From Leclercia sp. LSNIH1 (GTDB lineage Bacteria > Pseudomonadota > Gammaproteobacteria > Enterobacterales > Enterobacteriaceae), in the NCBI RefSeq assembly GCF_002902985.1, contig NZ_CP026167.1, positions 3,100,001 through 3,164,000 of the forward strand: a stretch of 64,000 nt of DNA. The letters are read 5' to 3'. Position 1 is the stretch's first letter, and each line of letters opens with the position of its first letter. A model generated the notes under the pieces. That model saw only the letters and a program-made list of their open reading frames with translations, was not told the origin of the DNA and made no database searches. Below are positions 614 through 63,949 of this stretch, one piece after another. The translations under genes and the position numbers were made by a program.

Positions 614-1435
614 TCACTGCTGGGCCAGCTCTGCCAGCTTGTCGCGAAAACCGGTGATCGACAGGGCGCGGTTATCGGCCCGCCAGCGATCTTTTGCCGC
701 CGGGGCCGAACTCTGAACGCCAATAAGCTGCCAGCCTGCGGCGGTATTCAGCATCAGCGGCGAACCGCTGTCGCCGGGCAGGGTATCACACTGATGGGAC
801 AGCACGCTGTTTTGCGCCCAGCCGGTGACGATACAGTCCTGATGGGTGTACAGCACATCCAGATGATCTTCCGGGTATCCCGCCTGGCTCACCTTGCGAT
901 CGGCCTCTTTCAGGGCGGCGGTCAGCTCCGCTTTATCCCCGGCAAACAGCGGTAGCGGGGTGATCCCCGACGGCGGGTTGCGCAACACCACCAGACCAAA
1001 ATCCCACGAGGCGGCAGAGGGCGGCACAATCCAGCCATCGCCATCGGCTTTCAGCCGTCTGCCTAATGAGGCATCGACGCGGCCTTCAATGCCGTGGATC
1101 TCATAACGCCAGCTCCCCTTTTGCGAGATGAAGCGCAGGGCAACGGCCCTATCCGGTTTACCTTTCGGCGGCACCAGCAGACAGTGTCCGGCGGTCAGCG
1201 CCAGTCGAGGGGTGATGAGGGTGGCGGTACAGAGGTTTCCGCTGGCCGTCTCCAGCTGGCCAATAGCCTCCCACGGCGCGCGGGACGGATCGGCGACACG
1301 CGTGCGATCGTCATGACCAAAAAAGAGCGTTTGAATCTCTTTGGCGTTCGCGGCCTCGTTGTCGCCATCGTCCGCATGACTTAATCCAGAAAAGAGAAAA
1401 AATGTTCCCAGCACAATCGCAACAGATTTACGCAT
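614..1435 (-). CDS. ydgD: YdgD, exported trypsin-like serine protease
   Basis: A 273-residue predicted serine endopeptidase of the chymotrypsin fold, the same length as E. coli YdgD. Residues 1–21 are a Sec signal peptide ending SHA, so it should act in the periplasm. The triad is visible: His84 in TAGHC, Asp145 in WDFGLVVL, and Ser223 in GDSGSP. Cysteines near His84 and before the serine loop could form disulfides. It is convergent with the EAL gene (1-base gap) and lies downstream of ydgU and asr, as in E. coli. The substrate is unknown. Start chosen at MRKS, directly before the signal peptide. Confidence 0.9.
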
Positions 1436-1537
1436 ATCACACTCTAAAGGGATTAATTATGATTATTAAATATGAACCCTGGTAATTAACTATAGACGGG
1501 ACAGCGCGAAAGTGGGAGTAAAATCAGCGTACTACAG

Positions 1538-1621
1538 TCAGGAAATATAAAACACACCCGCGACAAGTGCGCATAAAATAAGCGTGACAAGAATTACCTC
1601 AAACCGATAGCGCTGCAACAT
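1538..1621 (-). CDS. ydgU: YdgU, 27-residue membrane protein
   Basis: A very small gene found by reading the asr–ydgD gap. ATG at 1621 is preceded by a strong GGAGGG ribosome-binding site (1626–1631) and encodes 27 residues starting MLQRYRFEV and ending VFYIS, with one hydrophobic segment (about residues 9–25), so a single-pass inner-membrane peptide. Length, sequence character and place between asr and ydgD match E. coli ydgU as recalled. Function unknown. The ribosome-binding site begins only five bases after the U-run of the asr terminator, so translation of ydgU must rely on read-through or on a start inside that region. Confidence 0.8.
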   Translation of the reverse strand: MLQRYRFEVILVTLILCALVAGVFYIS

Positions 1622-1635
1622 AACGCCCTCCGGAT

Positions 1636-1672
1636 AAAAAAACGGCGCTGCCACCTTGCCGGTACAGCGCCG
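1636..1672 (-). terminator. Intrinsic terminator of asr
   Basis: Arms CGGCGCTG (1643–1650) and CAGCGCCG (1665–1672) pair perfectly over 8 bp with a 14-base loop. On the minus strand they are followed by seven T (1636–1642). It lies 43 bases past the asr stop codon and immediately upstream of the ydgU ribosome-binding site. Confidence 0.85.
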
Positions 1673-1714
1673 ATGACCAACGTGCCCGTCGCGGACACGT
1701 TAAGCTAAGCGGGC

Positions 1715-2032
1715 TTATGCAGCCGGTTTTGCGGTTGGAGCAGCAGCTTCGTGTTTCACTGCTTTTTTATGGTGTTTTTTTGCTGCCTGCGCTTTCTGGG
1801 CTACAGGTGCGGCCTCTTCTTTTTTCACAGCTTTTTTATGGTGCTTTTTAGCCGCCTGCGCTTTCTGTACTGCGACTTTTTTGTGTTTTTTATGCTGCAC
1901 GGTTTTCGCAGCCGGTGCCGCGGTAGAGGTGGCAGCCGGAGCCGCGGTGTTGGCAACAGCGTCAGCGGCGAATGCAGCAGAAGAGAGACCCATAGCAGCG
2001 GCAACAACCAGAGCTAATACTTTTTTCATCAT
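1715..2032 (-). CDS. asr: Asr, acid shock protein
   Basis: A 105-residue exported, very basic protein induced strongly by acid in E. coli. It starts [15 protein letters not shown], a signal peptide cleaved after AFAA, then an Ala/Pro/Thr stretch and two near-identical repeats of about 26 residues rich in Lys-His ([14 protein letters not shown]). The Lys/His content is thought to buffer or protect the periplasm. GAGGGT lies before the double ATG. An RstA box lies about 100 bp upstream and an intrinsic terminator follows. The repeats also appear at DNA level (about 1745–1880), so copy number may vary between strains. Confidence 0.95.
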
Positions 2033-2133
2033 CTTACCCTCGAATTGGTTTTTTCATTTAACCCCACTGCGGGGCCGTTGAAAGAACTATATCCCTGAAA
2101 TTTCGGGGCTTCCGTGAGTGTTTGGTATCGGCG

Positions 2134-61915: not shown

Positions 61916-61944
61916 AGTAAATCACCACTTTACTATCCGGTCAA
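61916..61944 (-). promoter_or_regulatory. Predicted PL promoter of the prophage
   Basis: On the minus strand TTGACC (61939–61944), a 17-bp spacer and TTTACT (61916–61921) form a sigma-70 promoter with the same -10 as the predicted PR. It would drive the left early operon down to int. It is covered by operator OL1. Confidence 0.75.
61917..61933. promoter_or_regulatory. Repressor operator OL1
   Basis: GTAAA-TCACCAC-TTTAC, a 17-bp dyad with exactly the arms found twice between cI and cro. It covers the spacer and -10 of PL, in the same placement as the OR copy over PR. Confidence 0.75.
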
Positions 61945-62017: not shown

Positions 62018-62046
62018 AAAAAAAATCCCGACGCTAAGGTCAGGAT
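62018..62046 (-). terminator. Second terminator of the accessory module
   Basis: On the minus strand a hairpin with arms ATCC.GAC/GTC.GGAT (one mismatched pair) is followed by eight T (62018–62025). It lies about 80 bases past the first terminator and keeps transcription from the accessory genes out of the PL operon. Confidence 0.75.
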
Positions 62047-62095
62047 CATGGAGTCCGGGGTGGGGATTGATGGCGGAGCTGGTGGATGAGGGTAC

Positions 62096-62127
62096 AAAAA
62101 ACCCGGCGCGGTGGCCGGGTTTTTTTT
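62096..62127. terminator. Bidirectional terminator overlapping the DUF6414-like stop
   Basis: CCCGGC (62102–62107) and GCCGGG (62114–62119) are flanked by an A-run and eight T, so it works on both strands. The stop codon of the gene at 62126 lies inside its right flank. Confidence 0.85.
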
Positions 62128-62965
62128 ATCTAATATTCCTGAAAATAACAAGTGGTGTCATACCATATGAATTACTACTCCGTCCGGCTAATCCTCTTAT
62201 ACCGGACAGCATCCCGTGAATGCCGTCTTTCATTGAATTTGGCTCAAAAGATAAAGTATCTATTTCATCTTCTTCCGCTTCGGGAAGTGCGTCAATGAAA
62301 CCAATCACATACCACTCGCCTGGCAGACTCGAACCATATTTCAAAACCATATCATCTGGATTAATCGTCAAGTAGTCACGATTTATGGTCATCCAAATTG
62401 TTTGGCCAGCTTCGTTAATGAAATCAACCTGCAAAGTGTTTGGAACGATATTTAAAACCTCTTTCATCATTCCAAATGTTACACCAGGGGCAATGAATTG
62501 TTCTTCAACATTAAAATTGGATTTTTTGGCTTTCGGCGGCAACTTTGGCTGTTCCATTTCCATCATCTTTGCGATAAATGGAACGCTTTTTTGGAGAACT
62601 GAGATGTCAAAAATTCTCATTCTACCCTTACACAAAACAGTGCTCCCTAGGCGCTCTCCATTGAGGTCTTTTCTTATCAGCCCGTTTTCATCAAGTTTAT
62701 CAAGAAGGTTGATTGGGAGAGTCCAGGATGCATCAAAACTTTTTTCTTGAGTTTGGTTTATGGTTTCTTCAACGCCGGTTTTGGCCTTGACAATCCTTAA
62801 GTCAAACCCCGCGTCGGACATAGATTTATCAATTTCTGCCGTTATATGCTTAATGGAGGTTACGACACCTGGACCATGCATCTGAGCGAGAAGGGAAGAT
62901 GCGCGTTGATTATCGACATAAAGAAAATCATATAGTGAATCGGTGCTTTGTTGCTCTTGCTCCAT
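62126..62965 (-). CDS. DUF6414-like accessory protein in rex position
   Basis: A 279-residue soluble protein starting at ATG 62965 (MEQEQQSTDSLYDFLYVDNQ). The opening YDFLYVDNQRASSLLAQM and a later LCKGRMRIFDISVLQ segment resemble the DUF6414 group, of unknown function. The frame is open 19 codons further upstream, but AGAGGAA before 62965 and the overlap with the small ORF support this start. It lies downstream of cI on the same strand, between OL and cI, as rexAB do in lambda, so it should be expressed in the lysogen. The gene is richer in A+T than the phage backbone. Role inferred: exclusion, defence or lysogenic conversion. Confidence 0.65.
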   Translation of the reverse strand: MEQEQQSTDSLYDFLYVDNQRASSLLAQMHGPGVVTSIKHITAEIDKSMSDAGFDLRIVKAKTGVEETINQTQEKSFDASWTLPINLLDKLDENGLIRKDLNGERLGSTVLCKGRMRIFDISVLQKSVPFIAKMMEMEQPKLPPKAKKSNFNVEEQFIAPGVTFGMMKEVLNIVPNTLQVDFINEAGQTIWMTINRDYLTINPDDMVLKYGSSLPGEWYVIGFIDALPEAEEDEIDTLSFEPNSMKDGIHGMLSGIRGLAGRSSNSYGMTPLVIFRNIR

Positions 62966-63107
62966 TTTGCCATTCCTCTTTTGCTCTTTCTTTTTTTTCA
63001 GCAATTTTCCGTTGCTTTTCATCTATCTCATCAAAAAGTTGAACAAGCTCATCCTCGACCTCGTTAGGCACGCTGGGCTTGGCTTGTTTAAATAATTTTT
63101 TGAGCAT
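62928..63107 (-). CDS. Charged 59-residue protein overlapping the DUF6414-like gene
   Basis: ATG 63107, preceded by GGGGG, encodes MLKKLFKQAKPSVPNEVEDE, LVQLFDEIDEKQRKIAEKKE and RAKEEWQNGARATKHRFTI. The middle is a likely amphipathic or coiled-coil helix of alternating Glu and Lys. It overlaps the next gene by 38 bases in another frame, so translation is probably coupled and the two products may act together. No family recognised. A sigma-70-like promoter lies just upstream. Confidence 0.6.
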   Translation of the reverse strand: MLKKLFKQAKPSVPNEVEDELVQLFDEIDEKQRKIAEKKERAKEEWQNGARATKHRFTI

Positions 63108-63118
63108 GATGAACCCCC

Positions 63119-63167
63119 AAAGAGAACTGACAGCTTAAATTATGTTCTCTTTACGTTGCTAAAGCAA
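63119..63167 (-). promoter_or_regulatory. Promoter and inverted repeat of the accessory module
   Basis: On the minus strand TTGCTT (63162–63167), 17 bp, CATAAT (63139–63144) make a good sigma-70 promoter. AAAGAGAAC (63119–63127) and GTTCTCTTT (63144–63152) are a perfect 9-bp inverted repeat with a 16-base spacer that brackets the -10, and GTTGC-TAAA-GCAAC (63155–63168) covers the -35. These look like operators for a dedicated regulator. Confidence 0.55.
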
Positions 63168-63258
63168 CTTCCTACCCACCAAACAGGAGTTCCATAAAGC
63201 ACTCCTTCACCCAAGCGTCTCGTCAGGCCACTACCAGCTATGCGCCGACCAGAACACC

Positions 63259-63642
63259 TTAATCCCCTTGCGACCTAATCCGCCCCTTCATGTACTTCTC
63301 ATACAGCTCGTCCAGTTCCTTCAGGCGGATCGCGAAGATGCGGAGCATGTTCTGCTGCTCTTCTTCCGGCAGCTGGCGATAGAGCTCCAGTAGGCGCTGT
63401 TCGTCAGGCTTAAGGCCGTCTTTCTCACCAACGTCCTCGCCGAGCAGCCATGGCACAGACACGCCAGCAGCGTCAGCAACGGCCAGGGCCGACTCTTTGC
63501 TTATCTTGCCGGTTCGGAACCATCCGGTGACCGCTTGCTTACTGACATTGGCTACCTTGGCCATCTCTGTTTTGGAGAAGCCTTTGCCGTTCAATTCAGT
63601 CAGCCTGGAAATAAGGCTCTCGTTAGGATCTTTTTTATTCAT
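63259..63642 (-). CDS. cI: CI-type prophage repressor (short, no peptidase domain)
   Basis: A 127-residue repressor from ATG 63642 (MNKKDPNESLISRL). The helix-turn-helix is FSKTEMAKVANVSKQAVTGWF (about residues 25–45), followed by a Glu/Leu-rich C-terminal helix region (about 85–120, RLLELYRQLPEEEQQNMLRIF) suited to oligomerisation. There is no S24 self-cleavage domain, so induction cannot use RecA-driven autocleavage and may need an antirepressor. No ribosome-binding site precedes the ATG; see the PRM entry. A longer frame to 63726 crosses the operators and is not coding. Confidence 0.85.
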   Translation of the reverse strand: MNKKDPNESLISRLTELNGKGFSKTEMAKVANVSKQAVTGWFRTGKISKESALAVADAAGVSVPWLLGEDVGEKDGLKPDEQRLLELYRQLPEEEQQNMLRIFAIRLKELDELYEKYMKGRIRSQGD

Positions 63643-63648
63643 GCGTGG

Positions 63649-63677
63649 ATTGTAAACAATAGCTTTACCAGTTGGTA
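63649..63677 (-). promoter_or_regulatory. Predicted PRM promoter, leaderless cI
   Basis: On the minus strand the -10 TACAAT (63649–63654) has only a poor -35 (TACCAA, 63672–63677), typical of an activated PRM. The transcription start would fall at or within a base or two of the cI ATG at 63642, so cI mRNA should be leaderless, as in lambda. Confidence 0.6.
63652..63668. promoter_or_regulatory. Repressor operator OR (PRM side)
   Basis: GTAAA-CAATAGC-TTTAC, same arms as OL1 and the PR-side copy. It overlaps the PRM -10, so binding here would shut off cI. Confidence 0.75.
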
Positions 63678-63689
63678 GGCAGGCGTGTA

Positions 63690-63718
63690 TTGACTCAATG
63701 GTAAATTGGTGCTTTACT
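63690..63718 (+). promoter_or_regulatory. Predicted PR promoter
   Basis: TTGACT (63690–63695), a 17-bp spacer and TTTACT (63713–63718). It should start near 63725, with AAGGAGG (63729–63735) ahead of the cro ATG at 63740. Confidence 0.75.
63701..63717. promoter_or_regulatory. Repressor operator OR (PR side)
   Basis: GTAAA-TTGGTGC-TTTAC. It covers the spacer and -10 of PR. Its arms and placement match OL1 over PL. Confidence 0.78.
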
Positions 63719-63739: not shown

Positions 63740-63949
63740 ATGACTGGTATTGAAAATGCAATTCTCCGATCTGGCTCGGCCAGCGCGCTTGGCGCTTTAA
63801 TCGGCGTTTCAAAAATGGCCGTTTCGTTGTGGCGCCGTAAAGGCATTCCTGCTGAAAGAGTGCTGCCAGTGTTTGAGGCCACCGGCGTAACTCCCCACGA
63901 ACTGCGCCCCGATCTCTACCCAAACCCCACTGATGGTTTACCAAAGTAG
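63740..63949 (+). CDS. YdaS/Cro-like regulator
   Basis: A 69-residue helix-turn-helix protein in cro position: MTGIENAILRSGSASALGAL, then IGVSKMAVSLWRRKGIPAER and the YdaS-family ending VTPHELRPDLYPNPTDG. It is the first gene of the right early operon behind PR and has an excellent AAGGAGG. It should bind the OR operators and oppose cI. The DicC/YdaS name group is common in Rac and Qin-like prophages. Confidence 0.88.
   Translation: MTGIENAILRSGSASALGALIGVSKMAVSLWRRKGIPAERVLPVFEATGVTPHELRPDLYPNPTDGLPK

Follow-up and report, generated by a model that had tools for sequence, protein, structure and literature searches.

An overlapping DUF6414 gene pair at the rexAB position of a Leclercia prophage: a probable moron and a candidate phage-exclusion system

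What is the pair of overlapping genes that a prophage of Leclercia sp. LSNIH1 carries between its repressor gene and its left operator (OL), and what does it do there? The pair lies in a stretch of 64,000 nucleotides (contig NZ_CP026167.1, positions 3,100,001 to 3,164,000), which was analysed as a whole and is called the window below. An earlier note on this DNA had described the pair as a moron and had drawn a parallel with the rexAB genes of lambda. On balance, we take it to be a moron, that is, a lysogenic-conversion module, whose most likely role is to guard the lysogen and the resident prophage against other phages; we infer the defence role, along with expression in the lysogen and an effect on phages, from sequence.

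Both open reading frames (ORFs) are present as the earlier note had described them, overlapping by 38 bases. The first encodes a small, charged, coiled-coil-like protein of 59 residues with the C-terminal tail GARATKHRFTI (62928..63107, minus strand), and the second a DUF6414 protein of 279 residues plus stop (62126..62965, minus strand). The mechanically called DUF6414 ORF is longer (298 codons) and begins upstream; we place the start at the conserved ATG at 62965, 9–14 nucleotides downstream of AGAGGA (62974..62979, minus strand), which lies inside the small ORF and, from aligned upstream strings, is the likely ribosome-binding site. In the dual-coding overlap (62928..62965, minus strand), the TGA stop of the small ORF falls across the codons for Y12 and D13 of DUF6414. 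A programmed frameshift joining both ORFs was considered and dropped, since, given the frames, it would demand a +1 shift, and since translation of DUF6414 can rely on a separate ribosome-binding site.

The assignment of the larger protein to DUF6414 stands: residues 11–244 match PF19952 with 41.7 bits (E 1.5e-10; gathering cut-off 25), and the protein matches phrog_9699 with E 3.7e-89 (PHROGs). The small protein matches phrog_29688 (E 2.3e-17), and its residues 24–58 also match phrog_6447 (E 2.2e-6), a family labelled as a membrane protein in the moron category. Across 33 aligned members, the maximal 19-residue hydropathy mean is 0.84, so there is no strongly hydrophobic stretch; the usual threshold for a membrane span is 1.6. 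The profile search of both proteins that the earlier note had suggested returned these families, and no model among the 5027 of PADLOC-DB 2.0.0 for either protein at E up to 1. NCBIfam gave no usable match for either, and no toxin family for DUF6414 or antitoxin family for the small protein was found in Pfam, NCBIfam or PADLOC. The term DUF6414 was not found in the literature searched, in which no paper was about the pair by its title or the start of its abstract.

We collected 94 loci with relatives of the DUF6414 protein from phage records, E. coli, a plasmid collection, GTDB genomes and IMG/VR, which together with the window make a redundant set of 95. Three of them (L032, L052 and L091) lack the 5′ end, leaving 92 loci for the overlap count. 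In all 92, a small ORF of at least 45 open codons in the same relative frame ends on a TGA that crosses the codon of a conserved DUF6414 aspartate. These loci form 31 clusters (cut at 90% identity without gaps across some 120 residues of the N-terminus), with proteins down to about 30% identity. The pair is therefore far more general than the window alone shows: the predicted overlap coupling is common to phages of gamma- and betaproteobacteria, and the overlap is ancient, kept in one register over proteins as diverged as this. Its length is 38 nucleotides in nearly all loci, 50 in L005, L026 and L028 (which have an upstream ATG) and 35 in L087; in L079 the start is ambiguous.

The small protein has an almost invariant C-terminus, with the consensus GARxTKHRFxL; among 33 sequences, G48 and R55 are invariant and R50 and H54 are conserved in at least 90%, while L087, which is outside this alignment, deviates. 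Outside the overlap, the small ORF has a pooled ratio of nonsynonymous to synonymous change (pN/pS) of 0.45, whereas the two alternative frames give 0.85 and 0.98 (all pairs from 13 loci), indicating that the small ORF is under protein-level constraint there. Within the overlap, synonymous change is lower (0.30–0.38 versus 0.63–0.75 outside; 13 loci), as expected from dual coding. The position of the small-ORF stop is partly dictated by the Y-D codons of DUF6414, but the ORF itself is not forced by DUF6414, because the pN/pS of 0.45 applies outside the overlap. Two distant DUF6414 genes outside the clade of the pair (L115:5879-8479 and L116:741-4725) have different neighbours, one directly following what we take to be an AAA ATPase-like gene and the other lying near a presumably DUF262-like gene; the small overlapping ORF was not found at either, with 7 and 4 open codons, respectively.

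The operators on either side of the pair are well defined. The operator GTAAA-N7-TTTAC occurs three times in the window, compared with 0.01 expected from shuffles: once at OL (61917..61933) and twice (63652–63668 and 63701–63717) in the right operator region, OR (63652..63717). The pair is located between OL and the repressor gene on the repressor strand, as the earlier note had it, and in the lambda annotation rexA and rexB fill the same interval. A repressor gene does lie where the note placed cI, as the upstream neighbour of the pair (63259..63642, minus strand), but its product is a DicA-like helix-turn-helix (HTH) repressor of 127 residues (NCBIfam, Pfam and PHROGs) and not full-length lambda CI; the DicA match has an E of 1e-8 in NCBIfam, yet its 35 bits fall short of the cut-off of 101. 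Similarly, the gene in the cro position is present (63740..63949, plus strand), and its identity is refined to a YdaS-like protein of 69 residues (PF15943, E 1.6e-12).

Ahead of the pair is a promoter-like site, TTGCTT-N17-CATAAT (63139..63167, minus strand), which is recognizable by the conserved string TTG-N20-CATAAT. All 32 enterobacterial-type loci that include this region (a class assigned by similarity; many of the loci are near-identical) have the string 57–63 nucleotides ahead of the small ORF, as do 14 of 14 chosen loci of this type and both same-genus genomes carrying the pair. As background, there are 49 plus-strand occurrences in 1.035 Mb of these loci, pair sites included. The sigma-70-like promoter proposed earlier is thus upheld as a conserved footprint, although a generic promoter scan did not list it and the site emerged only by comparison of loci. 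None of 23 distant loci (Moraxella, Acinetobacter and others) has the string within 150 nucleotides; some have other good sigma-70-like matches and others none. In the Acinetobacter-type copies L002, L013, L059 and L076, a terminator-like hairpin and a T-run after it lie, by eye, between the promoter-like site and the ribosome-binding site of the small ORF, as if for attenuation.

An operator-like dyad with inverted arms, AAAGAGAAC-N16-GTTCTCTTT (63119..63152), surrounds the −10 box, and a second, GTTGCT-N2-AGCAAC (63155..63168), lies over the −35 box. Both had been reported before and both are present in the window, but they differ in generality: the first, with arms of 7–10 bp and a gap of 15 or 16, is found in 11 of 16 promoters tested, whereas the second is not general in relatives. 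In L031, one of the 11, both arms are altered together (AAGGAAC/GTTCCTT). The dyad is weak in L118 (a 5-bp pair with a shuffle frequency of 0.30, not significant alone), and L005, L029, L040 and L041, among the 16 promoters, have no convincing one.

At the other end of the pair, a terminator-like hairpin followed by a U-run is situated directly 3′ of the DUF6414 stop (62093..62128, minus strand; inverted repeat I1; −18.7 kcal/mol, z −5.12), and a second one lies ahead of the region of OL and the leftward promoter PL (62024..62047, minus strand; −13.8 kcal/mol, z −4.47). The transcript of the pair should therefore not reach the PL operon, in agreement with the earlier claim that two terminators isolate the pair from PL.

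A scan of the whole window did not find the operator GTAAA-N7-TTTAC itself at the promoter of the pair. Among the matches listed, OR and the promoter region have at least 10 near-matching 11-mers in common (shuffle mean 2.0), and OL and the promoter region have 5 (shuffle mean 5.3); from the OR-like 11-mers, the phage repressor may have some relation to this promoter. The same-genus repressors (window 63259–63642, L117 and L118) are almost identical in their C-terminal half and differ in the HTH region at the N-terminus; the L117 and L118 loci, where this N-terminus differs, lack the operator. Immunity specificity thus seems to have been swapped around a constant slot in these prophages.

With a GC content of 0.402, the pair is richer in A+T than recE (0.571), the repressor gene (0.542) and the window (0.564), as had been noted. 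It is also sparsely distributed. Two of 59 other genomes of the same genus carry it, in the same slot beside the repressor, with DUF6414 identities of 63% and 34%. Of 249 genomes sampled across the phylum, 3 contain the family, as do 3 of 99 relatives (own genome included in both, one of the latter three below the cut-off). Among 5426 E. coli genomes, 9 contain DNA matching the pair, 2 of them over at least 80% of its length.

At enterobacterial-type loci, 8 of 10 scanned neighbour ORFs are repressors (PHROGs). The neighbour at L040 is a short ORF that matches nothing, with a terminase gene nearby, and at L041 it is a PD-Lambda-2_C homologue on the opposite strand (E 1.3e-41, PADLOC). The gene order is repressor, pair, kil in E. 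coli L005–L007; in Klebsiella L008, an S24-type repressor precedes the pair and gam-bet follows. The pair also adjoins a repressor in Bordetella IFTN8 and L061, and in Bordetella IFTN4 it has recT and lar close by. Elsewhere it is found amid tail genes (L001, L002, L059, L077 and L078), beside virion structural and baseplate genes (L012), between terminase and head protease (L014) and between an integrase gene and tail-fibre genes (L042). Other chosen neighbours match nothing (L044, L045 and L049), a DNA-ligase-labelled family (L011) or an unknown family (L051). The rex position is therefore not the sole home of the pair. The parallel drawn in the earlier note is one of position, and it holds; neither protein is related to RexA or RexB (see below).

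Recurrence at variable sites and beside altered repressors is the behaviour of a moron. By a promoter and terminators read from sequence, low GC, absence from most sister phages and variable sites, the pair is a prophage moron, and the marks on which the note had based this view are confirmed. The DUF6414 gene of Klebsiella L008 (6001-6836) consists of two annotated ORFs, and in the Moraxella-phage-like IMG/VR loci L088, L090, L092 and L093 the match spans only about the first 125 query residues; such split or shortened copies suggest decay.

What else occupies this slot bears on function. A query spanning repressor, slot, kil and gam of E. coli L006 gave matches in 3184 records, with coverage of at least 80% in 7 of the 3181 genomes with a match; flank parts are therefore common and the cargo is variable. 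We picked 11 slots (L098–L108) from 60 rows listed, mostly with differing annotated content and hence not a random sample. Their flanks are 93–98% identical where aligned, and for 6 of the 11 the alignment takes in no more of the repressor gene than its 3′ part. The L107 slot is without an annotated gene; the other 10 are occupied, and 5 of these 10 chosen slots give clear PADLOC matches, namely PDC-M63A/B (L098), PDC-M66A/B (L099), PDC-M11A/B (L101), PDC-S42 (L108) and a capP/RmrA-type peptidase (E 1e-14) accompanied by a DUF4411 protein without a match of its own (L103). The PDC names denote PADLOC candidates, not proven systems. L102 carries an annotated MqsA-family antitoxin and a SecB chaperone, as in CmdTAC, with a weak match to PD-T4-9_C (E 7e-4); L104 matches PbeC at E 0.004 only; and the cargo of L100, L105 and L106 has no PADLOC match.

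Between similar flanks, this E. coli lambdoid slot thus holds at least nine different cargoes of one to three genes. Phages mEp237, HK225 and PHB10, which have recE sequence in common with the window, carry other small ORFs in the interval. Further along, between ren and ybcN, L007 has a TIR-domain gene (1289-2101, minus strand; PADLOC TIR-NLR, E 2e-7), and L005 and L006 have another uncharacterized gene on the opposite strand.

Since the slot holds defence genes in relatives, the pair is probably a new virus-exclusion system, and the survey of sister prophages, a check proposed in the earlier note, turned out mostly favourable, with repressors as the usual neighbour and defence-type cargo in half of the chosen occupied slots. 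Owen et al., citing earlier work, describe the cI-n interval as a hotspot of mosaic diversity and as a site common to rexAB and bstA (PMC8585504). Vassallo et al. report 21 newly selected defence systems of E. coli, 12 of which sat in intact prophages (PMC9519451), and a RexAB-type system two genes from a CI-like repressor is reported to defend Pseudomonas putida against phage (PMC12894663).

We examined two AlphaFold models, both of DUF6414 proteins and about 30% identical to each other. Both have OB-fold matches in the C-terminal part, and a C-terminal OB-fold is likely for the DUF6414 protein. The OB-fold is found in many nucleic-acid-binding proteins. Foldseek searches returned nothing at E 0.001 or below, either against the PDB for both models or against a viral library for the first model only; RexA and RexB were not among the viral-library matches listed for the latter, which excludes nothing. 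A sequence search of solved structures with a single DUF6414 protein gave no match at E up to 1, and a profile search gave three chance-level matches (best E 0.079).

How might such a pair act? We propose that it is made in the lysogen and damped by a factor binding at the dyad that encloses the −10 box. The small helical partner would bind DUF6414 through its conserved tail GARxTKHRFxL and keep it poised; DUF6414 would recognize a nucleic-acid intermediate of the replication or expression of an incoming phage, and would then block that intermediate or abort the infection. Its operation would be like that of RexA and BstA; in sequence, it is unlike RexA by alignment, and Pfam finds only DUF6414 in the window protein. 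In this detailed form, the pair would be a hitherto undescribed two-protein exclusion system, with an OB-fold DUF6414 as sensor, a coiled-coil partner that checks or delivers it and whose tail is encoded in the bases of the DUF6414 start, and a promoter dyad as the site of its own regulator; we put this forward tentatively. Two observations weigh against a protective moron: copies of the pair in structural regions are without the TTG-N20-CATAAT promoter, and some slots hold cargo with no known role.

Several other explanations have to be considered. A small gene followed by a larger one, overlapping frames and an operator-like dyad across the promoter are also typical of a toxin–antitoxin-type pair, in which a small antitoxin would mask a growth-inhibiting DUF6414, so as to stabilize the prophage or trigger suicide upon infection; PD-T4-10 is likewise described by Vassallo et al. 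as two overlapping ORFs reminiscent of toxin–antitoxin systems (PMC9519451). With neither protein matching a toxin or antitoxin family in Pfam, NCBIfam or PADLOC, we regard this as a somewhat unlikely account. Alternatively, the pair could bind DNA or RNA and modulate lysogeny or induction by tuning the repressor switch or host expression, exclusion being secondary or absent. Its place beside the repressor, its likely OB-fold and the 11-mers in common with OR are compatible with such a function, and lambda RexA is reported to bind DNA and to bias the switch (PMC11077077). However, the pair keeps its form far from the repressor in other phages and beside repressors with different N-termini, and its promoter does not carry the exact operator, which makes a modulator improbable.

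Counter-defence genes and other host-directed accessory genes also occur in phage structural regions, where some phages carry the pair; such a role would be required by the phage, not by its lysogen. In the window, the pair is on the repressor strand, has its own promoter footprint and is insulated from PL by two hairpins resembling terminators, all of which argue against this role, and we think it quite doubtful. Finally, the small ORF might be a non-protein by-product of the DUF6414 start region, given that its stop is partly forced by the Y-D codons; this is scarcely credible for a frame that shows protein-level constraint, has a promoter footprint ahead of it and is open in every one of the 92 loci. 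We retain the protective moron as the preferred reading.

If so, the pair is a candidate for a new defence family missed by PADLOC-DB 2.0.0; it is clearly bounded as two genes, its native promoter is probably identified, and dozens of divergent copies are available for comparison. The cI-OL slot seems to be an exchangeable cargo site of lambdoid prophages, often with defence-type content, and thus offers a cheap way to more such genes. Irrespective of function, an overlap kept in one register at about 30% identity offers a natural example well suited to work on dual coding and translational coupling.

Among known systems, type II toxin–antitoxin modules have in common with the pair a small upstream gene that overlaps the downstream one and a common promoter (here by conservation only); the pair matches no toxin or antitoxin family in Pfam and NCBIfam, and the fold search points to OB only. 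Within DUF6414 (PF19952) at large, the window protein is a member above the curated cut-off, whereas the distant members L115 and L116 have other neighbours and are without the small overlapping ORF. Lambda RexAB is similar in that, by the lambda annotation, its two genes form a unit lying between cI and OL on the strand of the repressor, and in that one partner probably binds nucleic acid, which for DUF6414 is suggested by the models. It is different in sequence and design: DUF6414 is unrelated to RexA (BLASTP E 1.1; hhalign probability 0.1), the small protein is no RexB-type membrane partner despite the partial phrog_6447 match (hhalign probability against RexB 0.1), and in the DUF6414 pair the small gene comes first, the genes overlap and there is an own promoter footprint. 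The bstA gene of prophage BTP1 is described as following the repressor gene of the prophage, ending in a separate terminator and being widespread in Gram-negative prophages (PMC8585504), a setting like that of the pair; the DUF6414 module has two proteins where BstA is one, and Pfam finds DUF6414 alone in the window protein. The pair differs from the PADLOC candidate systems in matching none of their models, but it is like PDC-M63, PDC-M66, PDC-M11, PDC-S42 and the CmdTAC-like (PD-T4-9) cargo, the last of these by annotation and one weak match only, in that these occupy the same cI-kil slot in E. coli lambdoid prophages.
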